DNA from: a virus
Virus record (IMG/VR): IMGVR_UViG_3300037042_001489
Location: 1-29,680 of that record
DNA: 29,680 bases
Strand: one strand, 5' to 3'
Of the stretch, positions 1 through 29,680 are shown in pieces. The notes under the pieces are model-generated. The model saw only the letters and a list, made by a program, of their open reading frames with translations, was not told where the DNA came from and searched no databases. Both the position numbers and the translations under genes were made by a program. How positions within the stretch are numbered: position 1 is the stretch's first letter; each line of letters opens with the position of its first letter.

Positions 1-1
1 A

Positions 2-605: not shown

Positions 606-606
606 T

Positions 607-1246: not shown

Positions 1247-1255
1247 AGATGAAGC
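1208..1255 (+). repeat. Direct repeat copy 1 at a gene-gene junction
   Basis: This 48-base stretch matches bases 2123-2170 at 40 of 48 positions by eye. It covers the end of one gene (AIEAKLKELNHD), the 8-base overlap and the start of the next (MTKDEA). The same junction between genes is therefore present twice, about 0.9 kb apart, which indicates duplication of a module that includes the junction. Confidence 0.7.
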
Positions 1256-2161: not shown

Positions 2162-2170
2162 AGAAGAAGC
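2123..2170 (+). repeat. Direct repeat copy 2 at a gene-gene junction
   Basis: Second copy of the 48-base junction repeat described at 1208-1255 (40 of 48 bases identical by eye). It spans the end of the 131-residue gene (AIEAKLKERNHD), the 8-base overlap and the start of the next gene (MTKEEA). Confidence 0.7.
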
Positions 2171-2913: not shown

Positions 2914-3046
2914 GTTTGCAACCGATGCGTACAAGCGCATGCAAGAGCAGCAAGATGCTATGGAGCTTATGCGTAATGACTTGAGAACAGCGATGGAAAA
3001 TTATCGCAAACTTGTTAAGGAGATTTATGATGGCAACAACCCCTGA
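2864..3046 (+). CDS. Small coiled-coil phage protein, 60 aa
   Basis: A 60-residue, helix-rich protein (start MDDLPNFAAWNIHTLAKFA, then DAYKRMQEQQDAMELMRNDL and a charged helix). The start at 2864 is chosen over an in-frame ATG at 2771. AAGGAAG lies upstream (2849-2855), the sequence from LPNFAAW onward is of a type I recognise in phages, and the longer form would lie mostly inside the upstream gene. The second half is probably a coiled coil. It ends inside the start of the VRR-NUC gene and contains that gene's ribosome binding site. Function unknown. Confidence 0.6.
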   Translation: MDDLPNFAAWNIHTLAKFATDAYKRMQEQQDAMELMRNDLRTAMENYRKLVKEIYDGNNP

Positions 3047-3335
3047 AGGAAAAGTTAAGGCAGCGGTGAGAAAGATTCTTGACGCTGCGGACGTGTACTA
3101 CTTCATGCCTCCGGGCATGGGGCTGGGTCGTGCGGGTATACCTGACATCATCTGCTGCATGGATGGGTTCTTTGTGGCCTTTGAGTTGAAGGCAGGCAAG
3201 GGCAAGACAACAGCGCTGCAAGACAGGGAGATTGCAGCCATCAACTCGCACGGTGGTAAAGCGTATGTGATAAACGAGAGTAACATTGATGACGTATATG
3301 AAATCATCGAATGGACAAACAACAACTGTGCATAG
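3030..3335 (+). CDS. VRR-NUC domain nuclease, 101 aa
   Basis: A single-domain VRR-NUC protein (PF08774, PD-(D/E)XK superfamily), the fold also found in eukaryotic FAN1 and in many stand-alone phage nucleases. Visible motifs are an N-terminal EGKVKAAV helix (E6), then GRAGIPDIIC (G36, P38, D39), then FELKAGKGK (E52-x-K54) and Q64, which together form the metal-dependent active site. The full-length single-domain form is typical. The start at 3030 is preferred because AAGGAG (3017-3022) is 7 bases upstream; the adjacent ATG at 3027 is possible. It probably cuts structured or branched DNA in phage replication or recombination. It lies just before the polymerase block. Confidence 0.85.
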   Translation: MATTPEGKVKAAVRKILDAADVYYFMPPGMGLGRAGIPDIICCMDGFFVAFELKAGKGKTTALQDREIAAINSHGGKAYVINESNIDDVYEIIEWTNNNCA

Positions 3336-3344
3336 GAGAACCAA

Positions 3345-3632
3345 ATGAACAAAAAAGAATTTAAAGAAATTGCCGAGCTAATTGAAAGCAGGCGAGAAAA
3401 AATGGGTAGTGAAAATGCGGACCGCATGGTGCGCGTATTTGAAATCATCTCACGCAGCTTCGCAGATGAAGATGGTGAGGGGGCACTGCTAATCACGGCA
3501 AGCAACGAGGCGTTGGGATTGATGGTGCTCAACGTAGACCCGGCAAGAACGCTGGATATTCTTGGGCTTGTCTTCACCAGCATGCACGCATCAATGATGC
3601 ACGGCGCACCTGAACGGGAGTTATTCAATTGA
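3345..3632 (+). CDS. Hypothetical phage protein, 95 aa
   Basis: A 95-residue acidic, mainly helical protein that I do not recognise. It starts with a charged helix (MNKKEFKEIAELIESRREK), has a central EISRSF/DEDGEGALLITASNEA region and ends with a hydrophobic helix (ILGLVFTSMHASMMHG). A ribosome binding site (AGGAGA) lies upstream of 3345, within and after the VRR-NUC stop. The stop overlaps the start of the DNA polymerase gene by 4 bases (ATTGAGC; the polymerase start at 3629 is TTG), so the two are translationally coupled. That adjacency suggests, without proving, a replication-related role. Confidence 0.6.
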   Translation: MNKKEFKEIAELIESRREKMGSENADRMVRVFEIISRSFADEDGEGALLITASNEALGLMVLNVDPARTLDILGLVFTSMHASMMHGAPERELFN

Positions 3633-13572: not shown

Positions 13573-16500
13573 TTATGGGCGTGTGGTTTTTTCGACTTGG
13601 GCTTCTACCCGTTTGATAGCCTGCATGTAGCGTTCGGACTGCAACTGACGCTGTGTATTCAACTGGTCTATCTTGGCCTGCTTGACATCACCCGTTGCTT
13701 TTGAAGCGCGTATCGTTTCTTCCATTACACGGAATTTACCCATCATCCGTTCGTACTGCATCGCCATTGGGGCCACTGCCAGTTCTGCCCGGTGCTCCCG
13801 TAAGACCTCCTTGGCTTTATCAACTTGCCCGGTGCGCTTGTACTCGTTAAAGGAAGCCTTGACTTGCAGTGCCTCATTAGCTAGACGGTACACGACATCA
13901 GCTTCTTCGCCACCATACTTGCGCTGGAACGAGCTACCTACCACGGGCAGTTGGGATAAGTGCCGAGTAGGGTCTGTGACGTTCTGGTCTTTGGTGAACA
14001 GGCCATCAGTTGCAGCCAGTGCCGCAAGTGGAAGCTGACCAAGGTAGCCCGACACAAGGTGCTCTATCTGGATAGGTGACAGCAGCGGGAGCATTTTGCT
14101 CATGGCTTTAGCCATCTCAGTGGTGTGCGCGTTGTAGCGATCTTCAGGCAGCATTTTCTGCTGACGCGCCGACTCAATGCTGGAGCCGTTGAAGAAGTTC
14201 TTATTGGTCCACACTTCGGCCACAGGCTTGATAAGCTGTGGTGCTAACATGGATGAAGCGCCGGGTATAGCGCCCACAAACATGTCCTTCAGGGCCAAGA
14301 GTTGCTGCCTGTTATCCACAGTGCCCTTCATGGCATCAACCGTTGCCACAGCGATCGAGAAGAACCAACCTGCTTCGTAGGGGATAGGCAGTTTCAATGG
14401 CTCATCCAAGCCGGGTATGTGCACGAAGAAGTTGCTGTACCGATCCCGTGGCTTGGCATTTTTATAATACTCGTCGTCATCCATCAGCATGGCATACACG
14501 ATACCTGTGCCCATCAGCAGCATGGCATTGTTCATGAACTTCTTCTTGATCTGAAGCTGTTCGTTGTATGGCATTTGCCCCCGCGCTGCTTTGTACAGCA
14601 CGTTAAGACCCTGAATCTGCGCATTGAAGAAGGGGATCAAGCGGCTGGCGTACTGCACCATAGGAGACAGACCGCGCTTGTGGAAGTTCATTGACTCCAT
14701 GACTGCCATGTCCGCTTGCACTTCGGACAAACCATTTTTGATGGCGTTGTCGTATATCAGTGAGCGTGTTGCAGCATCGGCGTTCATGGCGGCTCTGTCC
14801 GTCATTGCAAACAACTTGTCGATGGCACCCATTGATTGGCCGCTGGCTAACTGCAAGGCAAATTTGGATAGATCGCTAGGGTCACCTGTGAAGATGCCGC
14901 TTTGAATCAAGCCCTTTTCAATCAGCTTAGCGCCTGTCTCGCTCTGCCCCATGCTAATCTTTAGAAACTCTTTGTTGGCCTTGAAGATGGCTTTGATTGG
15001 ACCGTAGTCCAAACCAGTTGTAAACGTAGCTGCAAATGGATCACGGAACAACTGACGCAGTAAGTACATGGGGCTACGAGTCACGCCTGTACGCAGCAAG
15101 TCACCCGCAATACTGCCCCACTTAAGGAATGCAGGTATTGTTAGGTGTGCACCTTCCAAGCTCTTGACGATAAGCTCCGCAGGGATACCACCCATCACCG
15201 TGTCGTTGGTCTGCACGCGCAGCCAACGGTGGCCTTTATCCGTATCGTCTTTTGGATCAGGCTCCTGCATCCAGCGAATGATGCTGGGGTCAGCGTGGCC
15301 TTGACCTTTGTGAATAGGCATCAGGTTAGTTGGCTTACCGTCTTTACTGACCGGGCCATGACCTTGACCAAACGCTTGCATGGCGTAACCGATGTTACGT
15401 GCCGCCATATTTGTCATACCTTTTTTCACCAGCAACATAGTGTTGCGTGCGATCGACTCGTTGATCGGCAAGATTTTTGTCTCACCACCTTTGAGTTCTG
15501 CAAGGTACGGTTGATGGCGTACGTCACCAATAGTGATTGTCTTCTCGCCACCAAACACAAGTTCAGCCATGCCATTGTCACGCACACGGTAGTACGGCAC
15601 GTAGTCTTCGTCCTTCAGGAAAGCAGCCGCTTCCTTCTTGGAAATAGCGCCTGTGGAGGCCAACCATTCGATCATGCCTTTGTTGTAAGCGTTGTAAGTG
15701 GTACGTGCTTTTTCAAGTGCAGCTTTTAGTTTAGGGTCAGCGTTTGCCGTACGCATAGCTGCATCCACTTCAGCTTGCGTAACGCCAAGAGCACCAATGT
15801 CCAGTTTGCTCAAACCTTTGTTGGATGCACGTTGTGCAATCATGTAGGCTGTGGCTAAGTTGGTTTTTGCAACCTCATTGCCGTAGCTGTCTGGGATGGC
15901 TGACACTGCTTCAAAGATTTCTTTGGCTGTGTTCTTGCCCGAGGAGCGAATGCCTGTGAAGCCTTTAGCGTCTGTGTACGTCTCAAGAGGGCCGCTGCTC
16001 AGTGCAGCAAGCACCAGCGGCATGCTCTGGTCAGACTTGGTAACAGCATACATCGCCTGCTCGAAATGGCGTGTGTCACCGAGGGACTTAGCGCCAGCTT
16101 CCAAAGCTTTGCGTAACCCCGCACGCATGTCAACCAACTGCATCTCGGACTCAATAGCCAGATGCGTGCCCATGCGTTCTTTAAATCCTTTTGGTGTGGC
16201 CACGATGCGCTTGGCAAACTCGGAAAAGTCGTCGTCTTGCCCGTAGGTTGCTTCCGGGGCATTAAGAATTTCTGCATCCGTTTCTATTGATTTTTTCCAG
16301 CTTTTATTTGCATTCAACGCTTGATTTACTGTCATGGCTTCTTCGGTTATTTCCAAAGCATCATTAAGCAACGAGCGTTCTTCAGGTTTAGCGAAACGAA
16401 ACAGTGAAGCAAAAGCATCAACCAGCCTAGACAGGACAGACTTGTTAGGCGTTTCTGATGGAATCTGATCTAGTAAATTTTGAAAAGCTTTATCAGAAAA

Positions 16501-19500
16501 AACTTCAGCTAAAAACTCATGCGTGTTATTAAGCCCATAAATACTTTTGGACTTAAAACCAACTAAGGCTAGTTTGTTTTTTCTAAAGTAAGCCTTTCCT
16601 TCAGGCGTTGCAAGCCATTTTTCAACCGTTTTACGCAAGTGGTCTACACGCGCATTAAAGGCTTTGTTCGTAAACAACCCGCGTGATGTTGCCGCATGGA
16701 GTAACTCATGCAATAACACCATCGTGTTATCAGGTCGTACTTTAGAATTGGGCACTAGGACATAGTTTTGTACAGGGTTATAGTGGCCCGTTACATTTTT
16801 AGCCGTAGTACCTATTACTTCCATGCCTTTCTTTGAAGTTACATACACGCGACCATGCATGTCGCTAGAGTATGCAGACTCCAAAGAATCAGCAAGGATA
16901 AGAAATAGTTTTTTACTAAGGGGGTTTTGTGCTTTTTCTGCCGCTATTCGTGCCGCTTCCGAATACGTTTTCCCGTGGTATGGACTTGACGTGTCCATTT
17001 CCGTACCAAATCTTTTATCTAACTGCCTACCTTTAGCTTCAACACCGTCAGCAATATCTTGCGCAGAAAGTTTGGGGTTTTCTTTTGACGACTTTTGCGC
17101 TGTAGCAACAGTTACTTCTGCTTCAGGGGCGGTAGTTGTTTCAAACCCTTCTTCAGCCAAAACACCCATCTTCTCCTCGTTGCCTTTGGCTGCAGCAAGT
17201 AATCTATTAAGCCCCTGTAGCTCAACTTTACGTTCTTCAAGAAGGCGCACGCTTTGCTCGTTTTTGTTTCCTGATTGGGCAGAAAACGCCATCTTATTTT
17301 CAAGTTCAGCGATAGTACGCTCCAGACCCCGGCGCATGGTCTGGGCTGCTACGAACAGATCGAAGTCTTGCCGCCTGTCCAGCATCTTAAGATCGGCTGC
17401 GGTCAGAGGTGTACTGTTGGCAATCTTTTCTGCCGCAGCTTCGTTGCCCTCTGCAATAGCCTGCTTGGGTGTGGGGGGCTTAGCTATACCGCTTTGGGTA
17501 GGTCTGTTTCTGCCGCTAAAAAAGCGACTTTGGGTGCTCTCTTTACCGGGCACACCTGTGCGTATGTTGCTTGCAACAACCACTTTATTAACTAGGGGGC
17601 CAATTTTACGTTTAGGCATGCGCTTAGTTAGCAGCATGTCGTACTGCTTCTGCGCTTCAGCAATATTAAATTTGGACTCCGTTGGGTCGTTAATAACTTC
17701 CAACAGTGCTTCCATTTGCGGAGTGACTACGCCTGTAGTCCGCATATCCGTTTGTGCTGCTAAGTACCGTTTGGAACGTCCTTCTTTTTGGGCAAAAGTA
17801 CTTGCCTGCATGGCTTCTATTTGAGCTTGTAAAGCGTCTGCTCTTTTTAACTCTCCCTCACCACGCGCTTTATTCATGGCTTCAGTGGCGCGGTCGATCC
17901 TGTCTGCCAACTGCGATGAGGTGGTTTCAATAGGGGTACGTTCCGCACGGTTTTTAAAACTGCGGACTACTTGTTCCGTTTGCTTGGCCAATCTTTTGGC
18001 TTTGGCTAGTTCTGCTTTACGCGACTTGGTTGGATTATCTGCAACAAGCGCTTCGTGGTGAGGTATTGTGATTTGCTTTAGTTTGGCAAGCGTTTCTTCG
18101 GCTTCTAGTCGTATAGCCCCACTACCCTCGGTGCTGGCATTTAAGAACTTCTCAGCAAGGTTAAGCGCCTTAAGGTCACGCTTTGCGCTGTCCCTAGTTG
18201 TTTTAGTTTCTTTTTCATCAGCAGCTTTGGCTTCTAGCGCTGCTCTACGGGGGCCGACACTATCCAGTGTACTCACGGCTTTTCGGTACGATTTGAACGT
18301 AACAGATTCGCCGGGAAACTCTGTAGCAAGACGCTCAGCGCGTTCGTTCTCGTCTTTTCGTTTTGCACGATCCGCTTCTTCGCGGTCACGCTGTGTTTCT
18401 TCGGGGGCTACTTGAGTGCGGCGTTTTGTTTGTTTAAGTAAGCCTTCTTTTGCAGCTTTGATTCTTCCTTCGGTTACTTTTTTCAAGCGCTCTGCACGAC
18501 CCGCCTTTTGTTCCATCGCCAGTTTTGCTGCGCTTTGCTCCGTTTTGATTTCTTCCAGAACACCTGTATCAACACGACCTGCTTTAACAGCCGCAGTAAT
18601 GCCTTCTTTAGCTTCTTCAATCCCTGCAATGGCTTCCTTAGTGCCCTTACGTTTTTGCTGATTAGAAGCAACACGGTTGAGTGTTTTCTTTGCAGCATCA
18701 AAATCAGCATTAAGTTCAGTAACGGTGGCTAGTTCATTCGCAAGCTTGGCTTGGAAGAACCTGTCTTTCTTAAGGAAGTTGTTAAGCGCCTCGGGTAACT
18801 TACCACGCAGTTCTTCTAGTTTGGCAGATGCTGCAACCACTTCTTTCTGCGCGGAACGCATGCCATCCCAATCGGCTTTACTGACATCGTTGCCCATAGC
18901 ATCCGACAGTTTTTGTTTAGCAGCAATGACGTTAGCTATTGCTTCTTGCACGCCCTGTTGGTAACCCTGAAACTTTTCGGTGTTCTGTGAAATGGTTTCG
19001 CTAATGTCTTTTGAATACTCAACGGCTTCTTTAAGTTTGAGTTGCGCTGACATGTACTCCATTTGCAGGGGGGCCAGTTCCTCGTCAAGTTTACTCTTTG
19101 CAATATTGAATCTAACAATTGCGTCTGTGTGGGCACGTTCGGCCGCAAGTTGCCGCGCTTGTATTTCGGCTGTCACTTCTTGCGTGAAACTTTCGCTTTC
19201 TACTCGTGCCGCATTGTGCTTAGCCACAATGGTTTCTACAGCTTGGGCCAGTGCATCGGCGCGTCTCTGCAGGGGTTGCAGTCGCTTAATTAAATTCGAC
19301 AGTGTAGGTGCTACAGGCCCAATAGATGAGCGCAACTCGTGTAGCGCGTCACCCGCAAGATAGGCATCAAACTCAGCGCTTGTATTGAACGACTTGCCTT
19401 TAAGCTCTTCGTCTTCAAACATATCCTCTTGCACGGCACGTTTGATTTCGCCTGTGCTAGTGGTTTCTGTTTCTGATCGTTTGCCCTGCTCTGATAGTTT

Positions 19501-22494
19501 TTCTACCACCGCTAGGCGTTCTTTCAGCGTATTAGTGAGGTCTGTGGTATCTACGCCCGTGCGTGTACCGTGCAGCCATGAGATGACATCTTGTGCGTCC
19601 CCGTGATCTGCCATCAAAGCCCGTTTATTGGCTTGAATCTTTTGTACAATTGCTTCATTCTCTGGCGACAGTTTCTCAGGAAGCTCTTGGATAAGCCTGT
19701 CTGCATTTGCTTTGTATATACCAAATGGTGTTTTGTGCGGGGGCAAATCAATCGCATCTTCCCGCAGCATGTCCAAACCTTCTTTGACCGCATGCGCGGC
19801 GGCGAAGGGGCTACCAAATGTCTGTTTACCCGGAGCACGGCTTTCAATAGTGTAGCCCGGTTGCCCTGTTCTGGTGAACTCACCCGTATCTTTTTGTGCA
19901 GGGTACGTGTAGGACTTCGTACGCCCCGTACCATCTTGATCCCCTCTATTTCCCGCCACCTCTACCAAACTGCGTGTGTCCCCAAAACGGGTTATTAAAT
20001 CTCGCAGTTGTGTTTCTGCATCACGCCGAACCTGACGCTCTTGGCTGTCGTCCATAGGGTCGGCCTGAAGCTGCCGTAGTTTATTTACACGGTCTATCTG
20101 GGTCTGCTTAGCAGTGCCTGTTGCTTGTGATGTGCGTAATGTTTCTTCTGCTGCCCGGAGTCTGCCCATCATGAGTCCGTATCGAACCGCATTGATGTCA
20201 TTGATTAAATTATCAACAACTTGACTGCGTGCGGAGTCCAATTCAGACTGCTTGGCTTTACCCATATTAAAGCGGTTGAGGATGCTGACCATCTCACCAT
20301 AAGCTTTGGCACGCGCATCGCTGGCGTGCTGCTGCCCTTTAATATAATCAGGTTGCTCCATGCCCGAGTACTCTTCCAGCACCCTATTAGGTGCGGGGGC
20401 TTCTGCTGCTTTCTGCTTAGCAATAGTGTTAATTTCAGTTTGTGTTTTACCCTGCGCTATGAGGGCGCGTACTTCATCTTGGGTAAGACCGTAGCTCTTC
20501 TCTTTAAGGGAGCGCAGCCCATCGACCGCTTCTGCTTCGGCTTTCTTGTTTCCCGTAGCCTTGGCTATGTCCCGGTCTGCAATAAGCTCTGTACGCGACT
20601 TAGACCTAGCTGCATTAGTGGCCCTAGTGTTAGTCGTGTTGAACAGTTCACCCTGACCCATTGCACGTCTGCGTTTATCAAACTCCTCGGCAAGTTGCGC
20701 AAGTTCTGTTTCAGAAAACCCTTGATTCCGCAGCTTATCCAGTGTGTCCAAATCTTCTAAATACGAGGACACGTTGGGGTGGTCCCCTGTTGGGAGCGCA
20801 GGCCCCCCTTGTTGGGCAGCAATATCCGTTTGCCGTTGTGCTAGCTCTCCAACCGCAGGGGCTTGGCCTGCCATATACGCGTCATACTCTGCGCGAAGGT
20901 CTTCTAGTTTCTGGGCTTGTTTACCCATTAACTCCATATCGCCTTGACTCTGCGCTTTCATCATGGCCGTATCAATGCGCTTCATCCGGTCGTTGAACGA
21001 CTTTTCTGTTGGTTCTGCTACTTTGGGCGGCAGTGCGTCCAAAGCTTCTTGCGCTGCGCTTAGCTGGGTTTTAAGTGCTACTTCGCTTTTACCTGCGGCA
21101 ATAAGCTGCTGCGTGTCGGTAATACCTTGGTGGGCCGTACGAAGGTCATCAAGCTGCCTATTCAGAAACTCCATGTGCTGCTGAAGATCATCAGCCGAAG
21201 CCGTAGCTGTAGGCTCCGTAGTAGGCGCAGCAGGGACTTCAGCAGCAGGCGCAACCCCGGGGGGCTTAGCTGTTTGAATAAGGTTGTACTCTTGAATGAT
21301 GCGGCTTGTCTCATCAGCAGAGGTGAAGTCTTTGAATGCTTGCTTGGCTTCTGCCTGCCGTGCTTTACCCGCCAGATCATTGTCAGCTACTTTGGCCGTA
21401 GCTGCGGCTTTCAGCACGTCATACTGTTGTCTAAGCGCCGCATACTGCGCTTCAACTTGGGTAGCATACTCCGGGTCCAGCTTGGCTTCTTCAGCCTGCA
21501 CCCCTGCCGCAGCTTGCGCCTGTTGGGCTTCTGCGCGTGTAACATCTTGACGACCCTGCTCTTCTTTATTGAACCGGGTCTGCTCTGCACCGCGCTCAGA
21601 ATAGCGCCCGACAGGGGCCAAGATGCCACCAAGGGCGGCACCACCAATGAAGTTCTCAAAGTACTCTGCACGCGCTGCGGGGTTATCAATGTCCAGCCCT
21701 GCCTGCATACGCTCAAACACCGCCTGACCCGCTTCGGTCAAACCTTCTCTACCCATCGTCTTCCCGGTGGCAAGCAGATAGTCAGCGGCAGTCTTTTTGA
21801 TGCCTTCTTTGGCCAAGTCCTGCGCTGCTTTTTGAGACAGGTTGACACCTGCCTTCTCAAACATTTTCCCGATACCGGGCATCATGCGCAAACTAGCCAC
21901 ATCCAACAAAGCTTGTGGGATAGATGCTAGGGCGGCATTGGTCAGGTCAGTTTCGCCAAGGCTCTTCTCTGCCATCCCTTCGCCCGGTTTCATTTGGCGG
22001 GTAAGTCCAGCACCTGTGAACTGCGTTGCTGAAGCCAATCCAGAGGCACCAAGACCTGCAGCAGTGGCAAGACCAGCACCAGCGCCCAGAGCGCCAGCGG
22101 CAGGAGCAGCGGCAAAAGCCAGTGCAGGAGCCACCATGTATGGCAGGGAGCCGCCAGCCAACTCACCGATCTTGGTAAGTGGTGCTTCGGTCCAACCTTT
22201 TTCGGTTGGCTTGTACGTTTCCTTCTGGTATTTTTCCTGCTCCGCGATGTACTTCTCCGCTTCGGGAAGTCCCATCAAACCTGTGCGGCCTGCAAGTGCG
22301 GCGATGTCGCCTTTAAGACCTGAGTAGCCCGACTTGAGCGCAGCCGTGAACCCCTCTTGAGGTTGTGCCGTAGGCTCCTTGGAGGCAAACGCTTCGGGGT
22401 ATTTTTGCATGGCTGCTTGCCACGCTTCTTGAGGGCTTTTCCCCTCCTCAACAGGATAGAACGTGCCGTCTGGGAGGGGAAGGTAATTAGCCAT
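13573..22494 (-). CDS. Giant polyvalent virion protein with zincin motif and LPD38-like region
   Basis: A 2973-residue protein. Residues 1-40 form a small N-terminal module (LPDGTFYPVEEGKSPQEAW). Residues 113-163 are an Ala/Gly-rich, potentially membrane-active segment. About 320-1850 is largely charged coiled coil. An HExxH zincin motif lies at 1929-1933 (HELLHAAT) with a likely third ligand at E1993 or E1997 (HEFLAEVF). From about 2290 (DEDYVPYYRV) to 2850 the sequence (including LLRQLFRDPFAATF and RLIPFFNAQIQGLN) resembles LPD38, a domain of large polyvalent phage proteins. It has no RNA polymerase motif that I see. It is probably an ejected inner-virion protein. The ribosome binding site is weak. 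It is the last gene of the leftward operon and ends 45 bases from the terminator stem. Confidence 0.85.
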   Translation of the reverse strand: MANYLPLPDGTFYPVEEGKSPQEAWQAAMQKYPEAFASKEPTAQPQEGFTAALKSGYSGLKGDIAALAGRTGLMGLPEAEKYIAEQEKYQKETYKPTEKGWTEAPLTKIGELAGGSLPYMVAPALAFAAAPAAGALGAGAGLATAAGLGASGLASATQFTGAGLTRQMKPGEGMAEKSLGETDLTNAALASIPQALLDVASLRMMPGIGKMFEKAGVNLSQKAAQDLAKEGIKKTAADYLLATGKTMGREGLTEAGQAVFERMQAGLDIDNPAARAEYFENFIGGAALGGILAPVGRYSERGAEQTRFNKEEQGRQDVTRAEAQQAQAAAGVQAEEAKLDPEYATQVEAQYAALRQQYDVLKAAATAKVADNDLAGKARQAEAKQAFKDFTSADETSRIIQEYNLIQTAKPPGVAPAAEVPAAPTTEPTATASADDLQQHMEFLNRQLDDLRTAHQGITDTQQLIAAGKSEVALKTQLSAAQEALDALPPKVAEPTEKSFNDRMKRIDTAMMKAQSQGDMELMGKQAQKLEDLRAEYDAYMAGQAPAVGELAQRQTDIAAQQGGPALPTGDHPNVSSYLEDLDTLDKLRNQGFSETELAQLAEEFDKRRRAMGQGELFNTTNTRATNAARSKSRTELIADRDIAKATGNKKAEAEAVDGLRSLKEKSYGLTQDEVRALIAQGKTQTEINTIAKQKAAEAPAPNRVLEEYSGMEQPDYIKGQQHASDARAKAYGEMVSILNRFNMGKAKQSELDSARSQVVDNLINDINAVRYGLMMGRLRAAEETLRTSQATGTAKQTQIDRVNKLRQLQADPMDDSQERQVRRDAETQLRDLITRFGDTRSLVEVAGNRGDQDGTGRTKSYTYPAQKDTGEFTRTGQPGYTIESRAPGKQTFGSPFAAAHAVKEGLDMLREDAIDLPPHKTPFGIYKANADRLIQELPEKLSPENEAIVQKIQANKRALMADHGDAQDVISWLHGTRTGVDTTDLTNTLKERLAVVEKLSEQGKRSETETTSTGEIKRAVQEDMFEDEELKGKSFNTSAEFDAYLAGDALHELRSSIGPVAPTLSNLIKRLQPLQRRADALAQAVETIVAKHNAARVESESFTQEVTAEIQARQLAAERAHTDAIVRFNIAKSKLDEELAPLQMEYMSAQLKLKEAVEYSKDISETISQNTEKFQGYQQGVQEAIANVIAAKQKLSDAMGNDVSKADWDGMRSAQKEVVAASAKLEELRGKLPEALNNFLKKDRFFQAKLANELATVTELNADFDAAKKTLNRVASNQQKRKGTKEAIAGIEEAKEGITAAVKAGRVDTGVLEEIKTEQSAAKLAMEQKAGRAERLKKVTEGRIKAAKEGLLKQTKRRTQVAPEETQRDREEADRAKRKDENERAERLATEFPGESVTFKSYRKAVSTLDSVGPRRAALEAKAADEKETKTTRDSAKRDLKALNLAEKFLNASTEGSGAIRLEAEETLAKLKQITIPHHEALVADNPTKSRKAELAKAKRLAKQTEQVVRSFKNRAERTPIETTSSQLADRIDRATEAMNKARGEGELKRADALQAQIEAMQASTFAQKEGRSKRYLAAQTDMRTTGVVTPQMEALLEVINDPTESKFNIAEAQKQYDMLLTKRMPKRKIGPLVNKVVVASNIRTGVPGKESTQSRFFSGRNRPTQSGIAKPPTPKQAIAEGNEAAAEKIANSTPLTAADLKMLDRRQDFDLFVAAQTMRRGLERTIAELENKMAFSAQSGNKNEQSVRLLEERKVELQGLNRLLAAAKGNEEKMGVLAEEGFETTTAPEAEVTVATAQKSSKENPKLSAQDIADGVEAKGRQLDKRFGTEMDTSSPYHGKTYSEAARIAAEKAQNPLSKKLFLILADSLESAYSSDMHGRVYVTSKKGMEVIGTTAKNVTGHYNPVQNYVLVPNSKVRPDNTMVLLHELLHAATSRGLFTNKAFNARVDHLRKTVEKWLATPEGKAYFRKNKLALVGFKSKSIYGLNNTHEFLAEVFSDKAFQNLLDQIPSETPNKSVLSRLVDAFASLFRFAKPEERSLLNDALEITEEAMTVNQALNANKSWKKSIETDAEILNAPEATYGQDDDFSEFAKRIVATPKGFKERMGTHLAIESEMQLVDMRAGLRKALEAGAKSLGDTRHFEQAMYAVTKSDQSMPLVLAALSSGPLETYTDAKGFTGIRSSGKNTAKEIFEAVSAIPDSYGNEVAKTNLATAYMIAQRASNKGLSKLDIGALGVTQAEVDAAMRTANADPKLKAALEKARTTYNAYNKGMIEWLASTGAISKKEAAAFLKDEDYVPYYRVRDNGMAELVFGGEKTITIGDVRHQPYLAELKGGETKILPINESIARNTMLLVKKGMTNMAARNIGYAMQAFGQGHGPVSKDGKPTNLMPIHKGQGHADPSIIRWMQEPDPKDDTDKGHRWLRVQTNDTVMGGIPAELIVKSLEGAHLTIPAFLKWGSIAGDLLRTGVTRSPMYLLRQLFRDPFAATFTTGLDYGPIKAIFKANKEFLKISMGQSETGAKLIEKGLIQSGIFTGDPSDLSKFALQLASGQSMGAIDKLFAMTDRAAMNADAATRSLIYDNAIKNGLSEVQADMAVMESMNFHKRGLSPMVQYASRLIPFFNAQIQGLNVLYKAARGQMPYNEQLQIKKKFMNNAMLLMGTGIVYAMLMDDDEYYKNAKPRDRYSNFFVHIPGLDEPLKLPIPYEAGWFFSIAVATVDAMKGTVDNRQQLLALKDMFVGAIPGASSMLAPQLIKPVAEVWTNKNFFNGSSIESARQQKMLPEDRYNAHTTEMAKAMSKMLPLLSPIQIEHLVSGYLGQLPLAALAATDGLFTKDQNVTDPTRHLSQLPVVGSSFQRKYGGEEADVVYRLANEALQVKASFNEYKRTGQVDKAKEVLREHRAELAVAPMAMQYERMMGKFRVMEETIRASKATGDVKQAKIDQLNTQRQLQSERYMQAIKRVEAQVEKTTRP
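13639..13746 (-). repeat. Internal protein repeat copy 2 (giant protein residues 2917-2952)
   Basis: Residues 2917-2952 (MMGKFRVMEETIRASKATGD and on to RQLQ) match residues 775-810 at 21 of 36 positions without gaps. The unit is a charged helix-loop-helix. It sits near the extreme C-terminus of the giant protein. Confidence 0.7.
20065..20172 (-). repeat. Internal protein repeat copy 1 (giant protein residues 775-810)
   Basis: Residues 775-810 (MMGRLRAAEETLRTSQATGT and on to RQLQ) match residues 2917-2952 at 21 of 36 positions, more than 2100 residues away. The copies have diverged at DNA level, so this is an old duplication or repeated use of one short helical module. Confidence 0.7.
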
Positions 22495-22557: not shown

Positions 22558-24627
22558 TTATGGGGCACGTACCTGTCCAGCAGCGGGGGCACCGGACACC
22601 ATGCCGGGAGTCATCTGCAGCAACATGCGCTGCTGTACTATTTTTTTCATTTCAGGGGAGAGGCTCTCCAAAACCATTGGGTCTTTCATTGCTGCCAAAA
22701 TAATTGCTTGGTCGCCTTTACCTTCAGCCGTAGCAGTAGTGTAATAGTCGAAGCCTTTCTTGGCATCGCCACCGCCAAGTGTTTTAAATAGACGCTCTTG
22801 CGCACCCGGCAGCAGTGCATTTTCACGTTGCGTTTGCGCAGTGAGCGCTGCAATACCTGCCTGCGATTGACGGTTTAACTGGTTCTCTCTGGACTCAAAT
22901 GCTTGTTTTTTGTCTAGACCACGATCAGCCATAGATGCGTCATAGATATGCCCAGCAGTCTTAAGGTTAACATCTTCTTGCTTAGCAATGTAGTCCACAT
23001 TTGCTTTCTTGGTGGCAACCTGCGCGTCTGTGATTTTGCCTTTGGCAGCAAGTATTTGCTTACGAGACATATCGTTGCGGTTGAACTTCAAGTCATCGTA
23101 TGCATCACGGGCTTCTTCAGCCTTCTGACGAGCCGCTTCTGTCAGGCGGTTTTCTTCCGTGTAGCGTTTTGTGCCTACGGCGGCACCTTCAGCAATACCT
23201 GCCAAGCCTTGACCGCGAGACTGCATCATAGCTAGACCCGCATCAATAAGCGCCATATTAAGATCATTGTTGCCCTTGTCCGCAAGCCTCTTTTCACGTT
23301 TGCCAAGACGATCTTCTCGGCTCTGTAACATGGCTTCGGATGCTGCCTTGGCTTCTTCTTCGGAGGCTATTTCTTTATTTGCCCGGTCTGTCAGCAGCTT
23401 TTCTGTTTCACCAAACTCTTTGGGGATTTTTGTGCGTGGATCAGGCATGGCTGCGTTTACGCGCTTCCAAGCGTCTTCATAAGATTCACCCGGTTTTTGT
23501 ACAACAGGTGCAACTTTTTCAGCACCACCCAACGCTGCATAACGCTTGTTCATACTGGCTCTGTACTGGGCTTCTGCGTCTACGGGAGCACCTGTACCGG
23601 ATGGAACGTATGGACCGCTGCTGACACCGCTAGGACCAGCAAGCGCCTTGTTCAACTCTGGACTCATGCGAGGGTCGTTAGCCATTCGACCGTAGCGGGT
23701 GCTGTCCGTTGGCATGGTAGCTACGGATGGACGTTGTGTAACAGCAGCTTTAGCAGGGGCTGCTTGTTCAGTGGGGTTATTCCTACCTTCCCGCATGATG
23801 GCTGCGGCCAAAGAAGTATCGTCACCACCACCCGATTCCAAAAGTTGTTCAAGCTGATCGTCGCTTAGACGGTTAAGATAGTTTGCACTCAAGGCTGATA
23901 ACCCCGCACCACCAGCACCAACACCCAACGCCATAGGGTTAAGGGCGGCTGCAGCCAAATTGCCTTGCGGTGTTTTTGGGAGGTTTTGATAAGAGAGGCC
24001 GCTGCTTCCGGGGGTTGGTATTTGGCCTGTTGTAACGGGAGACGGGGCCACTTTTGGCATTTGAGGGCCGCTTGTGGCGCGACCAAACGCATCCTTGAGG
24101 CTTTGCTGTGTTGCCTTGTCTGCGTTCGCATACTCGGAACCTGTCTTACCCACACTTTCCAGAAACTTACGGAACAACTCTGAGTTAAACCCACCGTCTG
24201 CAAACGCCACAATGCCGCCGCCAGCCATGCCACGCATGTTGTCCGCAGGTAAAGCACCGATGCCCGAGTCTTCGGGTAAACCCTGCGGTTGTTGCGGTTG
24301 TTGCGCTTGTTGCGGTTGTTGCGCTTGTTGCGGTTGTTGCGCTTGTTGCGGTTGTTGCGGTTGTTGTTGCTGTGGGGGTTGACCCATTTGCTGCACAACC
24401 TGCTGGTTGACAGGTGGGGGAGCGCCTGTCTGCTGCGCCAGCATGCTTGTTGCCTGACTCTTGATCTGGTTGTCCACATACTTAGCTGCGGACAGCATCA
24501 GAGGGTCATCCGAATGCATAGACGCAAACTGCTGGCGCTGTTGCGGTGTCATCCCAACAAGCTTGGAGATGACGGAGTTGATATTCATTGGTGCGGTGAT
24601 GCCGCTGTCCGAAGTTCCGAGTGCCAT
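22558..24627 (-). CDS. Putative virion protein with PQQAQQ repeat, 689 aa
   Basis: A 689-residue protein. An N-terminal helical part (NSVISKLVGMTPQQRQQFA) leads to a Gln/Pro low-complexity region at residues about 66-115 built from PQQAQQ units. Next comes the motif GGGIVAFADGGF (136-147), which I recognise from structural proteins of uncultured aquatic phages. The middle is Pro/Ser/Ala-rich and probably disordered, and residues about 410-620 are charged coiled coil. The C-terminus (SPEMKKIVQQRMLLQMTPG) is helical. AAGGAAA precedes the start by 5 bases. Its place between the giant protein and the Gln-rich protein suggests an inner-virion or ejection-apparatus component; the function is not shown. 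Confidence 0.7.
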   Translation of the reverse strand: MALGTSDSGITAPMNINSVISKLVGMTPQQRQQFASMHSDDPLMLSAAKYVDNQIKSQATSMLAQQTGAPPPVNQQVVQQMGQPPQQQQPQQPQQAQQPQQAQQPQQAQQPQQPQGLPEDSGIGALPADNMRGMAGGGIVAFADGGFNSELFRKFLESVGKTGSEYANADKATQQSLKDAFGRATSGPQMPKVAPSPVTTGQIPTPGSSGLSYQNLPKTPQGNLAAAALNPMALGVGAGGAGLSALSANYLNRLSDDQLEQLLESGGGDDTSLAAAIMREGRNNPTEQAAPAKAAVTQRPSVATMPTDSTRYGRMANDPRMSPELNKALAGPSGVSSGPYVPSGTGAPVDAEAQYRASMNKRYAALGGAEKVAPVVQKPGESYEDAWKRVNAAMPDPRTKIPKEFGETEKLLTDRANKEIASEEEAKAASEAMLQSREDRLGKREKRLADKGNNDLNMALIDAGLAMMQSRGQGLAGIAEGAAVGTKRYTEENRLTEAARQKAEEARDAYDDLKFNRNDMSRKQILAAKGKITDAQVATKKANVDYIAKQEDVNLKTAGHIYDASMADRGLDKKQAFESRENQLNRQSQAGIAALTAQTQRENALLPGAQERLFKTLGGGDAKKGFDYYTTATAEGKGDQAIILAAMKDPMVLESLSPEMKKIVQQRMLLQMTPGMVSGAPAAGQVRAP
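24292..24363 (-). repeat. 18-bp tandem repeat encoding PQQAQQ
   Basis: Three perfect tandem copies of TTGCGCTTGTTGCGGTTG (plus strand; 24301-24354) are flanked on each side by a 9-base half-unit TTGCGGTTG (24292-24300 and 24355-24363). The repeat lies inside the 689-residue gene, stays in frame (18 is a multiple of 3) and produces the Gln/Pro-rich segment. Copy number could change by slippage without breaking the frame. Confidence 0.9.
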
Positions 24628-24636
24628 AGCGTTTCC

Positions 24637-26052
24637 TTATGCCATTCCGTGGAGGATCAGTGCAGCCAACCCAGCAGGTTTTTTAGATTGGATAGCACCA
24701 CCTTTTGCTTTGTTGGCAGCGTTGTACGCACCGTACAGACCTGCCCCGGCTGTGGCTAAACCCGCAACTTGGTTCATTGTCGAAGGCTGTGCCGAATACA
24801 CACTGCTGCCTAAATTAGACACGGGCGACCCGCGCACAACATCAGACATAAAGCCGACTTTTTTGTACAGGTCATTCATCTCGTTGGTGTAGTTCTGGTA
24901 GCCAACATTAAGCAGGTTTTGAGTCTGCTGCTGCTGCTGTGTACCGTACAGGTTCTGCGCTGCGATGTTGCCTGTTGTCTGTCCATACAGATTTTGACCT
25001 GCCGAACCAAGAGCACCATAGCCTTGCATACCCGTCTGCTGCCCTTGCAAACCTAAGTTAGCACCAAATTGGTTTGATTGCTCACCTGCATTCTGACCAG
25101 CCAACCCGTATTGGGCGGTGCTTTGTGCGCCTGTCATGCCCTGACCCGCACCAAACTGTTTTGATTGCTCCGCGAGTTGTTGCGCGGTCATGCCTGTCTG
25201 CTGATTGGCAAGCTGGGACTGCATATTTTGACCCGAACCTAGCTGCTGTGTCCCCAACTGCGAAGCTAAGTTTTGCTGACCTACAGTAAGCCCCGCCTGT
25301 TGATTGGACTGTTGTGCAGCTAGTTTGGCATTTTGCTCTGCATTGAACTGCTGCTGTGCTTGCTGGTAGGCTGCTTGGCTTCCTTGTGCTTGGATGTCGC
25401 CCATCTGCTGTCCAAGATTACGCTCCCGTTCAGCACGCATGATAGCGTCCCGACTCCCGCCAAAAGCCCCTGCTTGGACTGCTTGTGCTTGCTGCTGCGT
25501 ACCTTGAATGCCAGACTGCCTTTGTGCTTCACGCTTCTGAATGTCCACAACATTCTGCATGTAGGGGTCCATGTACTGGCCCGCAGTACCCTTACCTGTA
25601 AAACTCTGTGTACCTACTTGCGCGGCTGGACCCATTTGGTACTGCTTCAAAGCAGGTGCGGAAACTTTGTCTGCCTTGAACTGTCCTGCTTTATAGGCTG
25701 CAGGCGCTTTAAATTGATTGTCAAATTTCGCAGCTTTGTAGCTTGTATCGCCTGCCTTTTTAGCTAGACCTGCCAGACCTGTAGCGGATTGTGTGGAGTA
25801 CTTGTTTTCGGTTAAATTTTCTGCTTTCTTAAAAGCGTCCGTTTGCGTTTTATTAAACTTTGCTACTTGGTCCCCAGACAATTTTTTAGATTTTGCCCAA
25901 TCAGCGTAACTTTGGTAGGGTTTTTTAACTGCAGCGGCTGCACCACCTAGTACACCTTCAGCATAGGGTGCAACCTGCGGGGCAAAACCTACCTGCTGTT
26001 GGGTAGTCGTTGTAGGAGTTGATGGGCTTCCACCTAAATATTTAGTAGCCAT
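24637..26052 (-). CDS. Gln-rich repetitive virion protein, 471 aa
   Basis: A 471-residue protein. After an N-terminal Thr/Gln-rich and Lys-rich part, a conserved core at about 159-225 reads QYMDPYMQNVVDIQKREAQR, then AFGGSRDAIMRAERERNLGQ. I recognise this from structural proteins of uncultured aquatic phages. Residues about 230-385 are degenerate short repeats rich in Q, G, A and N (QQTGMTAQQLAEQSKQFGAG is typical) and may form an extended helical or disordered array. The C-terminus (AGLATAGAGLYGAYNAA; KGGAIQSKKPAGLAALI) is small-residue and hydrophobic. AAGGAAC precedes the start. It is probably an inner-virion or scaffold-like protein of the late operon. Confidence 0.7.
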   Translation of the reverse strand: MATKYLGGSPSTPTTTTQQQVGFAPQVAPYAEGVLGGAAAAVKKPYQSYADWAKSKKLSGDQVAKFNKTQTDAFKKAENLTENKYSTQSATGLAGLAKKAGDTSYKAAKFDNQFKAPAAYKAGQFKADKVSAPALKQYQMGPAAQVGTQSFTGKGTAGQYMDPYMQNVVDIQKREAQRQSGIQGTQQQAQAVQAGAFGGSRDAIMRAERERNLGQQMGDIQAQGSQAAYQQAQQQFNAEQNAKLAAQQSNQQAGLTVGQQNLASQLGTQQLGSGQNMQSQLANQQTGMTAQQLAEQSKQFGAGQGMTGAQSTAQYGLAGQNAGEQSNQFGANLGLQGQQTGMQGYGALGSAGQNLYGQTTGNIAAQNLYGTQQQQQTQNLLNVGYQNYTNEMNDLYKKVGFMSDVVRGSPVSNLGSSVYSAQPSTMNQVAGLATAGAGLYGAYNAANKAKGGAIQSKKPAGLAALILHGMA

Positions 26053-26061: not shown

Positions 26062-28119
26062 TTATGCTGGTAAGTGCCGAGCAGCTTTGCTGTTCGTAGC
26101 CACTTTGTTTTTGCCGATTGTTTTAGCACGTCCCTTTTGGATACGTGCCATCATTGCGTAAAGCTGCTTGGCTCCTGCCGCTGTAGAGCCATTCCCTAGT
26201 TCAGATACGATTCTTGCCGGGACAACGAACTCCCCATCTGCGAGTCGTGCTGGTTGACCCCGACCAATTGTAGCGGGGATGCCATCACTCACACCATCAC
26301 CCGGACCCCGAAGAAGTTGACCACCATCAGAGTAGCCGCCAAGAGAACCCAAACCGCCATTTGAAAGATTTGCAATACCGCCGTAGGCGTAATGGGCAGC
26401 AGCACGGTTATCAAAACGACCACCGCTATAAAAACCACCACGGGCATCATCAGGAGCATCGCCAACACCGGGTCCACCGGGTCCACCGGGTCCACTGGGA
26501 CCAACCCCATCACTTCCTTGGCCACCAGCACCCCCATCAGGCGCTCCACCACCACCGCCACTATCATTACCAGTACTAATACCGTCTACCCCAAGACCCG
26601 GATTACTAGCCGTGCCAACACCTGTATCATTTGTAACAGAATTAGCACCTTGTGCCTGTGCTTCAGCTTGTGTCTGGCCTTGCACAGATGCGTCTGTCTG
26701 GTCATCTGCTGCAACGGTATCATTAGGCGTTGGCATGCCTATGGAAGTACCCGCGTTTGATACAGGCGCTAAACCCTCACTAGGACCGACCGTAGGCCCT
26801 ACCAAGCCCAGCGCCTGACCGAGAGAAGCAATTCCGTTCATGCCCATTGTTGCCAGTCCGGGGCCAGTCGTATTGCTTGAATCCGTTGTAGAACCCGCAT
26901 CAAAACCACCAGCGTTGTTTGCTTTGTAAAGTGCACCTAGGCCAGCATCACCAGCACCAGCACCACCACCAGCGGCTGTATCTGCTAACCAATCGTACGT
27001 GTTGGTTTCTTCGTTGTACACGTAGTGACCACCCTCACGTGTGTAAATGTCAAGGGGTACTATTGCTTGCTTTTCTGGTTCTTGGTGTGTGAACAGCATT
27101 GGGTTTTTAGCACCCGGAACCCCCATTAGATAATCGTATGCTTTTTCTGAATCCGAACGTTTGTCTGTAGGGTCATTAACGTTGGTGGACTCTCCCACAC
27201 CACCAAACGAAACGGAGTCTGCCGGGATAACCGTCCCACTGGAGGACACCGAGTCATATGATTCGGTTTCTGGGTTCCAAACCAAACGGCCTAAACTTTT
27301 TCCAACCGTACCGCCACCTGCATACCTCGTGCTCTGCGGAACACCGCCAAAAGTCACGGCAGACCGACTGCCAAACTCTGCAGTAGGCGTTGCAGAAACT
27401 TGGTACATTGCGCCCGTCACAGGGTCTGTGGCGTATTCACGAATATAGCCGGGGCTGGTTTGGGTAGGTGGAGCGCCTGTTTGATCGTTGTTCGATGCAA
27501 AGCCTCCCAATACCGCAGGGCCAAATGCTTTGAACAGATTTCCCGATTGGTCTTTTAGGAAGTCTTTTGGAGAATCCATAGCGGCACTTGCTCCTGCTTT
27601 AAGCTTGCTTAGTGTGTCCGTAGGGGCGGTACTGGCTGAATAGGCGGCATTGCCTGCCTCCCCCGCTGGTATTAAGCCACCCGCCATATCTGCGTCAGCC
27701 GCACTTTGGGCCAAGTTGCCTGCACTACCCAAGCCCATAAGACCTTGGTGCAAACCCGCACCGCCATAAGCACCCATGCCTGCCATGATGCCTTCAGACA
27801 AACTGCCTGAACTAAGACCCGCCAAGCCGCCTACCGTAATAGCTGTACCCGCAGCTTGACCAAGCCCCAACGCACCCCCTACGGCTTGGCCTACTCCCGG
27901 AAGAAAGTAATCAAGCGCGAAGCCTGCTACCGCAGGAAGAATGTCATTTAGTGAAAGGGCTTCGGGTAAACCCGTAGTAGGGTTTATTGTCAGCGATGTG
28001 CCATGTTGCTCCGCAAGCGCTTGGAGACCGTGCACTTCTCGTGGAGACATATGCACAAGCATTGAGTCAGGGCCACGCCCCTGTGAGGCAAGGTGTTGGG
28101 CTGCATTATTTAGGCTCAT
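26062..28119 (-). CDS. Gly-rich virion protein with DGEFVVPA C-terminal module, 685 aa
   Basis: A 685-residue protein in three parts. Residues 17-55 hold MLVHMSPREVHGLQALAEQH and SLTINPTTGLPEA, a recurring phage N-terminal module. Residues about 57-135 are a long Gly/Ala hydrophobic segment (ILPAVAGFALDYFLPGVGQA) that could insert in membranes. A Gly/Ser/Pro/Asp-rich linker includes a collagen-like GPGGPGGPG at about 541-549. The C-terminal module (GPGDGVSDGIPATIG, then ARLADGEFVVPARIV and KQLYAMMARI) is a conserved ending of phage structural proteins. Its stop lies 9 bases before the start of the Gln-rich gene. Together these suggest a virion protein that acts during DNA delivery; that is inference. 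Confidence 0.75.
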   Translation of the reverse strand: MSLNNAAQHLASQGRGPDSMLVHMSPREVHGLQALAEQHGTSLTINPTTGLPEALSLNDILPAVAGFALDYFLPGVGQAVGGALGLGQAAGTAITVGGLAGLSSGSLSEGIMAGMGAYGGAGLHQGLMGLGSAGNLAQSAADADMAGGLIPAGEAGNAAYSASTAPTDTLSKLKAGASAAMDSPKDFLKDQSGNLFKAFGPAVLGGFASNNDQTGAPPTQTSPGYIREYATDPVTGAMYQVSATPTAEFGSRSAVTFGGVPQSTRYAGGGTVGKSLGRLVWNPETESYDSVSSSGTVIPADSVSFGGVGESTNVNDPTDKRSDSEKAYDYLMGVPGAKNPMLFTHQEPEKQAIVPLDIYTREGGHYVYNEETNTYDWLADTAAGGGAGAGDAGLGALYKANNAGGFDAGSTTDSSNTTGPGLATMGMNGIASLGQALGLVGPTVGPSEGLAPVSNAGTSIGMPTPNDTVAADDQTDASVQGQTQAEAQAQGANSVTNDTGVGTASNPGLGVDGISTGNDSGGGGGAPDGGAGGQGSDGVGPSGPGGPGGPGVGDAPDDARGGFYSGGRFDNRAAAHYAYGGIANLSNGGLGSLGGYSDGGQLLRGPGDGVSDGIPATIGRGQPARLADGEFVVPARIVSELGNGSTAAGAKQLYAMMARIQKGRAKTIGKNKVATNSKAARHLPA
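26468..26503 (-). repeat. 9-bp tandem repeat encoding a collagen-like GPG run
   Basis: Three perfect copies of CCGGGTCCA (26468-26494, plus strand) are followed by one degenerate copy (CTGGGACCA). They encode GPGGPGGPG in the linker of the 685-residue virion protein. The unit length keeps the frame. Confidence 0.85.
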
Positions 28120-28370
28120 ACTTTTACTTTCAGTGCGTTATCCGCAGTAGTATCGCGGTAGACATCCCCAATCCGCAGGATGGCAATATTAGCTTCAGTG
28201 GGTAGCGTGTTAAGGTCTAAGTTTAACCCCGCCAACGATAGCACTTGAACTGCATTAATGTTATTAAAGAATAGCCGCAAAACATTGTTAAGCGCATTGA
28301 GGTACTCCCTGCTATATGCCGCAGGCGGCAACGGTAGATTAGGCGTACTTTGCAGAGATAGCATACCCAT
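28116..28370 (-). CDS. Small conserved virion-operon protein, 84 aa
   Basis: An 84-residue protein with a Pro-rich N-terminus (TPNLPLPPAAYSREYLNALN), a helical middle (NNVLRLFFNNINAVQVL) and a conserved ending LPTEANIAILRIGDVYRD to LKVKV. I recognise the LPTEA...GDVY.D...LKVKV pattern as a short structural-operon protein of phages; its function is unknown to me. The start has a strong GGAGG site inside the end of the upstream gene, and the two overlap by one base (TAATG). Its stop overlaps the next start (ATGA). This tight coupling suggests stoichiometric co-translation with the neighbouring tail and Gly-rich proteins. Confidence 0.7.
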   Translation of the reverse strand: MGMLSLQSTPNLPLPPAAYSREYLNALNNVLRLFFNNINAVQVLSLAGLNLDLNTLPTEANIAILRIGDVYRDTTADNALKVKV

Positions 28371-29680
28371 TATAAATTACCTCCAGCACGTCCATCTTGG
28401 CGTATGTCTATCCGGGGGCTACCTAGCTGCCACTGCACCCCGAGCGCGGTAGAGTCAATCTTCATTTGTATTTGCCGCCCCCTGATGCGGACATAAACTT
28501 GCCCAGTAAATTGTTCAATAGGTATGACGGCAGTCCGTACAACCCCCGCAGAGCTATTACCACCCACGGATTCAGGGTTGTTGAACCCCGAGCCTGAGTT
28601 GGTCAGGGGCTGTATCTCCATTGTAATTGCCGGGTTTGCGGCAGTAGACCCACGAAATGTGACATCAGGCAGTACCCGGTTTATAAACGAAAAGTTATGG
28701 CCATCACCAATATCAAACTGGGACGAAACAATATTGGACGCAAGGGGTAGTAGCGCATTAATTCCATAGGTGCCATCGTCCACACCGTTCTCATGCTGCA
28801 CAATGTTGTTTGCATATGTAGCGGCTATGGGGTAGTTTTGTATGCCTGTGTCTAACCATGCAGTACGCCCCAGATAACCGTAGTACCAAATGTCCTCTAG
28901 GTAGTTGTACACCACATACCGATCTACGGCAAGGGAGTTTGCGGAACAATAAAACCACCAGACTTCATTGAACCCTTCGTTGGTTCCTGCACATACTTGA
29001 TACTGCTGGGTCTTGCTAGAGTCATTAAAAATATACTGCCATAGGTCACACCGTAGGGTCTTAGCACTGCCGTCATACTTGTAGAACTTGTCAACCCCCA
29101 TCCAGAATGTAACCCCAGAAGCTACTGCCATTGCATTCGGGCTTATGATGGATGTGTTGTCAGCCAATATCTGAATACCCCATATATAGGGTGGACCAAG
29201 ATATTGCAAAGAATACAGCGCTTGGTCGGTCCAGACCAAAATCTCCTGCCGAACCTGCAGCACAGCAATAATTTCAGACCCGTGCGACAACCGGACATCG
29301 CCTGCTTGGTTCAGAACAGTGGGGGTCCACATGCTTACGCTTTCTTGGTTCGACCACCGGATCAGCATAGGGTCTCTGATCACACTGCCTATTTCGTTAG
29401 TGCCAAACGCAAAAACAAAACGTGATGAATCAGACACCATGAGGCACGATTGATACAGCGGTACATCAGAGGCTGCAGCAAAAGAAGTAACGGCTACTCC
29501 CCGCGATGTAACATCAAGCGCAGCAGACCAGTAGTACAGCCCCCCACCGCGAGGGCCAAACACAAGGTCTTCACCAAAGTTCTGTTGGTTCCATAGTTGT
29601 AGCGTGACGGTGCTCTCTGTACCAATGCCCCAAGGCCCCGCGCCCCATGTTCCTGATCCCCACCCCGTGGCAGGAATCTG
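28370..29680 (-). CDS. Phage tail/structural protein, 5' end outside window
   Basis: The frame runs open to the window edge (437 codons visible, 436 complete), so the start is not present; an internal GTG at 29561-29563 is probably not the start because the upstream frame reads sensibly (WGSGTWGAGPWGIGTE, then LQLWNQQNFGEDLVFGPRGG). The sequence is beta-rich and aromatic, with repeated motifs such as ILVWTDQALYSLQYLGPPY, VTFWMGVDKFYKYDG and NEVWWFYCS that suggest repeated propeller-like blades. I recognise the family from the tail modules of podovirus-like phages and infer a tail nozzle/hub-type role, but a specific name is not justified. It leads the visible leftward late operon. Confidence 0.75.
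   Translation of the reverse strand, partial: QIPATGWGSGTWGAGPWGIGTESTVTLQLWNQQNFGEDLVFGPRGGGLYYWSAALDVTSRGVAVTSFAAASDVPLYQSCLMVSDSSRFVFAFGTNEIGSVIRDPMLIRWSNQESVSMWTPTVLNQAGDVRLSHGSEIIAVLQVRQEILVWTDQALYSLQYLGPPYIWGIQILADNTSIISPNAMAVASGVTFWMGVDKFYKYDGSAKTLRCDLWQYIFNDSSKTQQYQVCAGTNEGFNEVWWFYCSANSLAVDRYVVYNYLEDIWYYGYLGRTAWLDTGIQNYPIAATYANNIVQHENGVDDGTYGINALLPLASNIVSSQFDIGDGHNFSFINRVLPDVTFRGSTAANPAITMEIQPLTNSGSGFNNPESVGGNSSAGVVRTAVIPIEQFTGQVYVRIRGRQIQMKIDSTALGVQWQLGSPRIDIRQDGRAGGNL

Follow-up and report, generated by a model that had tools for sequence, protein, structure and literature searches.

A giant LPD38 phage protein with an exchangeable zincin-type domain and likeness to podophage ejection proteins

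The locus and the layout of the giant protein

The stretch of DNA analyzed here (the window) comprises 29680 bases and is a virus contig from IMG/VR. Its plus-strand genes include those for a family A DNA polymerase, a PD-(D/E)XK nuclease, a SNF2-type helicase, and a DUF927/primase-like protein, while the minus-strand genes begin with a virion structural protein (phrog_3287) and end with a giant gene (Table 1). The giant gene is one intact open frame on the minus strand with an ATG start, and the coordinates and the length of 2973 residues given in the earlier note are exact. The phrog_3287 gene (28370-29680, minus strand) is probably cut by the contig end, because its relative in a related contig (L003:755-3118) is 787 aa long, as against 397 aa in the window. 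The gene order, with a structural (nozzle-like) protein followed by smaller proteins and the giant last, fits that of PhiM1 and N4; the three intervening genes belong to no recognized family, with no Pfam or PHROG match for the 689-aa protein and no family match for the 471-aa protein. The latter is very rich in Gln, Gly, and Ala, lies near the giant, and is a possible small ejection partner. In one contig from a related phage, a distinct protein of a peptidase family is encoded on the opposite strand (L014:14611-15906; phrog_4191, E 1.5e-65).

What kind of phage does the window come from? The related contig G002 encodes a terminase and a portal protein on the corresponding strand, and the window is therefore assigned to a tailed phage. 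Judging by relatives such as the podovirus PTXU04 (PMC6563267), the phage would be short-tailed.

Table 1. Features of the giant gene and its minus-strand neighbors (positions in the window; residues are those of the giant protein)
Feature	Position	Strand	Basis
Whole gene, giant ejection-protein candidate	13573..22494	-	single frame; full-length relatives L025/L035 2975 aa, L005 2961 aa
N-terminal block, residues 1-300	21595..22494	-	55-82% identity in L002-L004 (windowed identity)
Ala/Gly-rich hydrophobic segment, residues 108-160, possibly membrane-inserting	22015..22173	-	composition; borderline hydropathy peak
Charged mosaic central region, residues 301-1800	17095..21594	-	poor conservation, close relatives included
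Zincin domain, exchangeable cassette, residues 1814-2045	16360..17055	-	profile matches to solved ejection proteins, hhalign, model, fold comparison
HELLH, residues 1929-1933; putative zinc ligands H1929 and H1933, putative catalytic E1930	16696..16710	-	invariant in 16 relatives
HEFLAE, residues 1992-1997; putative third zinc ligand E1993, following helix	16504..16521	-	E, F, E invariant in 16 relatives; predicted helix
Conserved C-terminal module, residues 2046-2973, TEP hub-like at start	13576..16359	-	identity; VIA-align to PhiM1 TEP 268-911
LPD38 domain (PF18857), residues 2674-2852	13939..14475	-	E 1.2e-26
689-aa protein directly upstream of the giant, same direction; ejection-complex partner position	22558..24627	-	gene order only
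471-aa Gln/Gly-rich protein, possible virion partner	24637..26052	-	gene order only
685-aa Gly-rich protein, possible virion partner	26062..28119	-	gene order only
C-terminal part of virion structural protein (phrog_3287)	28370..29563	-	E 4e-44

The giant was earlier described as having a membrane-active Ala/Gly segment near its N-terminus, followed by some 1500 residues of charged coiled coil. The Ala/Gly-rich stretch is there, but "membrane-active" was a guess; the segment has a single borderline hydropathy peak (residues 120-138, mean Kyte-Doolittle 1.61). Likewise, the central region is charged (D/E/K/R 21-44%), but coiled coil would apply to parts of it at most, since a crude heptad score reaches high values only around residues 400, 900, and 1050-1170. 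The expected LPD38-like C-terminus was recovered clearly (94 bits, cutoff 27). The C-terminal module around it is mostly 51-70% identical over about 40 relatives, and PHROGs match the C-terminus to one family without a function and to nothing else. LPD38 and a zincin-type domain thus occur in one chain, as anticipated for a multi-domain "polyvalent" protein, and the zincin is the sole enzymatic domain recognized in the giant by Pfam and PHROGs scans. Two other identities were considered and rejected on the same scans: a virion RNA polymerase (vRNAP), because no polymerase family was found, and a lysozyme or transglycosylase within the giant, because no profile matched.

The zincin-type domain and its solved relatives

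The zincin-type domain is marked by HELLHAAT at residues 1929-1936 and by a later HEFLAEVF at residues 1992-1999, both exactly where the earlier note had read them. HExxH is a short motif, and it could in principle arise by chance in a charged protein. The HELLH motif is not a chance occurrence, because it is conserved in relatives and only 0.03 copies are expected from the composition of this giant. With all 63 of 63 relatives positive and homologous domains solved, coincidence is vanishingly improbable and was rejected. Across 16 relatives, H1929, E1930, H1933, A1934, A1935, E1993, F1994, and E1997 are essentially invariant. In the predicted model HELLH lies on a helix, as a zincin requires. 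The earlier note had named the lack of a third zinc ligand as the finding that would count against the domain; instead, a conserved Glu, E1993, is predicted on the next conserved helix, and it is invariant and aligned with the corresponding positions of a solved tetrameric ejection protein (TEP), that of PhiM1, and of N4 C1. Taken with the profile matches described below, the invariant residues indicate a genuine zincin-type domain, and its fold and zinc site are very probably real. No curated Pfam peptidase family was matched; the best was DUF6782 (putative metallopeptidase), at 13.8 bits against a cutoff of 27. Plasmids yielded no relatives of the zincin, and bacterial genomes yielded 24 pattern matches, none of them a relative.

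What does the domain resemble? A profile of only two zincin sequences already matched the PhiM1 TEP gp48 and a gp10. A 16-sequence profile matched the gp10 of 23sg (E 2.4e-9), 8vb2 (E 6.6e-9), and the internal virion protein of 9sfn (E 6.5e-8). Comparison by hhalign gave 96.3% for the PhiM1 TEP and 57% for N4 vRNAP C1, with HExxH and the later Glu aligned in both. The PhiM1 match spans HEAAHAKT and YGLSDTHEF, within Asp268-Asp528, and the HEFLAE of the giant is aligned with the THEF of the PhiM1 TEP. The PhiM1 authors named this region endolysin/exotransglycosidase-like from BLASTP and DALI, and a metallopeptidase is nowhere mentioned in the text of their paper (PMC11440229). The "endolysin-like" domain of PhiM1 TEP 268-528 is read here as a zincin. 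Using tblastn, the same domain was found in podophages of Klebsiella, Pectobacterium, Dickeya, Xanthomonas, and Pseudomonas, where it is part of internal core proteins. Many of these proteins are labeled "internal virion protein with endolysin domain," an annotation given in many phiKMV/KP34-like phages. This "endolysin domain" contains HExxH and a later HEF, and is homologous to the zincin of the window.

Structural models extend the comparison. AlphaFold2 models of the zincin alone (mean pLDDT 69, pTM 0.72) and of the zincin plus C-terminal module (mean pLDDT 68, pTM 0.48) are both of middling confidence. For the zincin model, the top rows of VIA-align are nearly all HExxH proteins, with zincins at Z up to 6.4 and N4 C1 at Z 5.8; a Foldseek search of the PDB with the same model returned no E under 0.001 (best 0.08). 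For the longer model, the first PDB chain is 8vb2_A, the PhiM1 TEP (Z 10.0, 346 residues, rmsd 21.7), a score to be read in light of the fact that Z of about 10 can be reached by chance among helical proteins. This match places model residues 3-641 on TEP 268-911, the high rmsd reflecting domain motions or partial errors. N4 vRNAP C1 is the second PDB match (Z 7.6), followed by unrelated helical proteins. In a viral structure library, the longer model found LPD38 proteins first, PTXU04 included, and a Pseudomonas phage internal core protein lower down (E 1.5e-6). By sequence, whole-protein phmmer against the PDB gave nothing useful, a C-terminal module profile matched nothing in the PDB, and comparison of the module with N4 C2 aligned the HExxH strip alone.

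Because profile matches, fold match, and gene order agree, the TEP class is the best reading of the giant, which is quite probably an ejection protein of the kind represented by T7 gp16 and PhiM1 gp48. Confidence in TEP homology beyond the zincin, as suggested by the models, is moderate. A virion or ejection role had been proposed earlier; homology to solved ejection proteins and the gene order speak for it, as does, by analogy, a distant LPD38 protein, JC1 gp69, which was detected in virions by mass spectrometry (PMC9144972).

How does the giant compare with known systems? First, phage polyvalent proteins that combine LPD38 with a zincin-like peptidase were described by Iyer et al. 2017 (PMC5512222), whose main functional proposals were already the same. 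As depicted there, they are giant phage proteins and share with the window giant LPD38, an embedded HExxH, and a later-helix Glu, whereas only one enzymatic domain is recognized in the window giant. The latter is thus a further LPD38 and zincin protein of a described kind. Second, the PhiM1 TEP gp48 (8vb2, PMC11440229), the gp10 of 23sg, and 9sfn have a homologous zincin (HEAAH ... THEF), a hub region after it, and a place in the gene order that fits, but solved TEPs are ~1240-1340 aa long, compared with 2973 aa for the window giant. Third, N4 vRNAP gp50 (9pnr/9pnt, PMC12633501) is likewise ejected and of giant size; it has an HExxH domain, C1, and a gene position that fits. In gp50, C1 is followed by a helical C-terminal part of ~1100 residues; unlike the window giant, in which none was found, gp50 has an RNA polymerase domain, and its C2 gives no sequence alignment with the LPD38 module. 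Fourth, Escherichia phage PTXU04 gp25, which is required for plaque formation (PMC11879866), has an LPD38-type module and a zincin ~1040 residues from the C-terminus, but its motif is HEIIVH (HExxxH type), its length is 2197 aa, and it is only ~23% identical.

Exchange of zincin types among relatives

Among close relatives on viral contigs, three carry the same zincin (L005, L025, and L027). In contrast, L002-L004 match the window giant closely in the C-terminal module (65% identical) and in the N-terminal 300 residues (see Table 1), but have no similarity in the zincin stretch, where HEIAGH ... EEVLADIAE (an HExxxH motif) takes its place. The HExxxH variant is described for polyvalent proteins by Iyer et al. 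2017 (PMC5512222). Most cultured phages with LPD38-type proteins have a zincin motif 1000-1250 residues from the C-end; it is present in Vibrio D274 and D171, Aeromonas phiARM81mr, Achromobacter CF418P1, Planktothrix Pag-Yong1, PTXU04, and Pondi. The distant LPD38 proteins of Bacillus Palmer and Pelagibacter Lederberg have no such motif, and the zincin is therefore not needed everywhere.

A search with the C-terminal module collected 80 loci. Exactly one HExxH or HExxxH occurs in each of the 63 ORFs of at least 1900 aa, against 0.5 expected after shuffling; these ORFs include near-copies and do not represent 63 independent cases. A Glu-containing third-ligand helix follows the motif in 70 of 70 motif ORFs (69 by pattern, L083 by eye). 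The zincins fall into three types: HExxHAA (type A, 23 rows, window and L027 included), HExxGH[FY]G (type B, 26 rows), and HEVG[AV]H (type C, 23 rows). By hhalign, B and C are related at 96%, with A more distant from both (81% and 41%). One long ORF, L057, lacks the motif but is too short to count as an empty slot: it holds 1636 residues, and in its twins L056/L094 the distance from motif to C-end is ~1890 residues. In some relatives the zincin is separated from the C-terminal module by additional residues, ~170, 330, or 870 in number; such stretches lie at ORF positions ~2065-2400 in L089, ~1800-1990 in L075, and ~1850-2700 in L054. No Pfam domain was recognized in these stretches, nor in the inserts that follow type-C or HEGTH zincins.

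Zincin types have been exchanged repeatedly. A quick tree of the C-terminal module implies 17-18 type changes; when only its well supported branches are considered, 9 to 11 changes are still required for each type. Even at 85-90% C-terminal module identity, 69 of 112 pairs differ in type, and both flanks are conserved in 29 pairs of differing type. The clearest pair is L073 (type B) and L089 (type C). Their proteins are 92-100% identical up to residue ~1300 and again from ~1520, and 8-40% identical between. At the DNA level, identity is 97% for nt 1-3191 and nt 4582-16185 of L073 and 93.5% for nt 3117-3904, with nt 3905-4581 replaced by a longer stretch in L089 and the rest ~97% identical across 16 kb. 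The same hole is seen in L051/L053, L097/L104, and L040/L043. The central region of the giants is also mosaic, and the zincin is one among several exchanged parts; it is distinctive in that its slot is never seen empty in the surveyed group.

This pattern bears on whether the fold has a purely structural role, as a spacer or docking domain for which catalysis is irrelevant. The domain does belong to the packed core in PhiM1, and N4 C1 is described merely as a portion of a bulky C-terminal domain (PMC12633501). However, the residues retained across all types are the catalytic ones; a spacer would be expected to drift, and it would have no need of three types that all keep the zinc site intact. 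A solely structural role is thus quite improbable.

A proposed role after ejection

How might the giant work? Its position and architecture suggest an ejection protein, carried inside the virion of a short-tailed phage and comparable to T7 gp16 and the PhiM1 TEP, in which a variable N-terminal and central part would lead into a zincin metallopeptidase and then into a conserved C-terminal module of ~900 residues with LPD38. The giant would be packaged in the head and would exit before the genome. Complete retention of the catalytic residues suggests a working metallopeptidase, and the domain is probably active, judging from its sequence. Activity would come after ejection, while or after the giant occupies the cell envelope, and the target would be at least one host protein, located in the envelope or the cytoplasm, whose identity differs from host to host. 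That a giant TEP-like ejection protein carries a zincin acting post-ejection on host protein(s) is the best overall explanation, and a likely one. Its parts differ in strength: action after ejection is somewhat favored, whereas the chance that the substrate is a host protein rather than the giant itself falls a little short of even.

The main rival is self-processing, in which the zincin cleaves the giant, before packaging or after ejection, and releases parts of it. Iyer et al. 2017 chiefly proposed this function for the zincin-like peptidases of polyvalent proteins, and P1 DdrB is reported to be cut to 76 kDa prior to packaging (PMC5512222). The zincin is also suitably positioned for a cut, with the variable N-terminal part on one side and the conserved C-terminal module on the other. 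However, in the closest solved relative, the PhiM1 TEP, the domain is modeled in place within the hub of the mature virion (PMC11440229), and N4 vRNAP is packaged without processing (PMC5512222). For both reasons, activity after ejection is likelier than activity before it. It is also unlikely that a fixed cleavage site lies outside the cassette, because three very different zincins sit between unchanged flanks; a site inside the cassette would fit obligatory presence and exchange equally well. Overall, self-processing is somewhat unlikely.

Alternatively, the domain could open the wall or an envelope protein for the channel, replacing the lysozyme or transglycosylase of other ejection proteins. 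T7 gp16 carries a transglycosylase, and the PhiM1 authors suggested peptidoglycan cutting for the homologous domain (PMC11440229). No wall hydrolase was recognized in the giant or its neighbors in Pfam and PHROGs scans, and a task that is host-tuned yet obligatory would agree with the exchange pattern. Against this, HExxH zincins cut peptide bonds and are not known to cut glycans. In addition, the PhiM1 OEP holds a separate lysozyme-like domain (PMC11440229). A role in envelope passage is thus unlikely, although it overlaps with post-ejection action on host proteins if the substrate is an envelope protein. As for the post-ejection reading itself, some zincin is always kept while its type is swapped between unchanged flanks, which agrees with a task that is required but whose substrate depends on the host; retention of a host-directed protease without loss is somewhat unexpected.

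What are the implications? Neither an obligatory slot, nor repeated type exchange, nor a link to TEPs was found in the passages of Iyer et al. 2017 consulted (PMC5512222). More broadly, a search of the open-access literature found no description of the obligatory-but-exchanged slot, of homology between such zincins and solved TEPs, or of a relabeling of the "endolysin-like" domain. Tentatively, the LPD38 giants may be the TEPs of a large podovirus group, with an obligatory zincin slot before the hub that holds a host-matched, exchanged cassette, such that the zincin would serve as a host-tuned entry protease. The role of the most common enzyme domain of polyvalent proteins has been a standing question since 2017, and it is now testable, given natural pairs nearly confined to a zincin difference (L073/L089), a solved relative, and an E. 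coli phage, PTXU04. The zincin homology suggests a correction for the many phiKMV/KP34-like internal core proteins that are now labeled as having an "endolysin domain." Finally, the TEP link would join the literatures on polyvalent proteins and on podophage ejectosomes.
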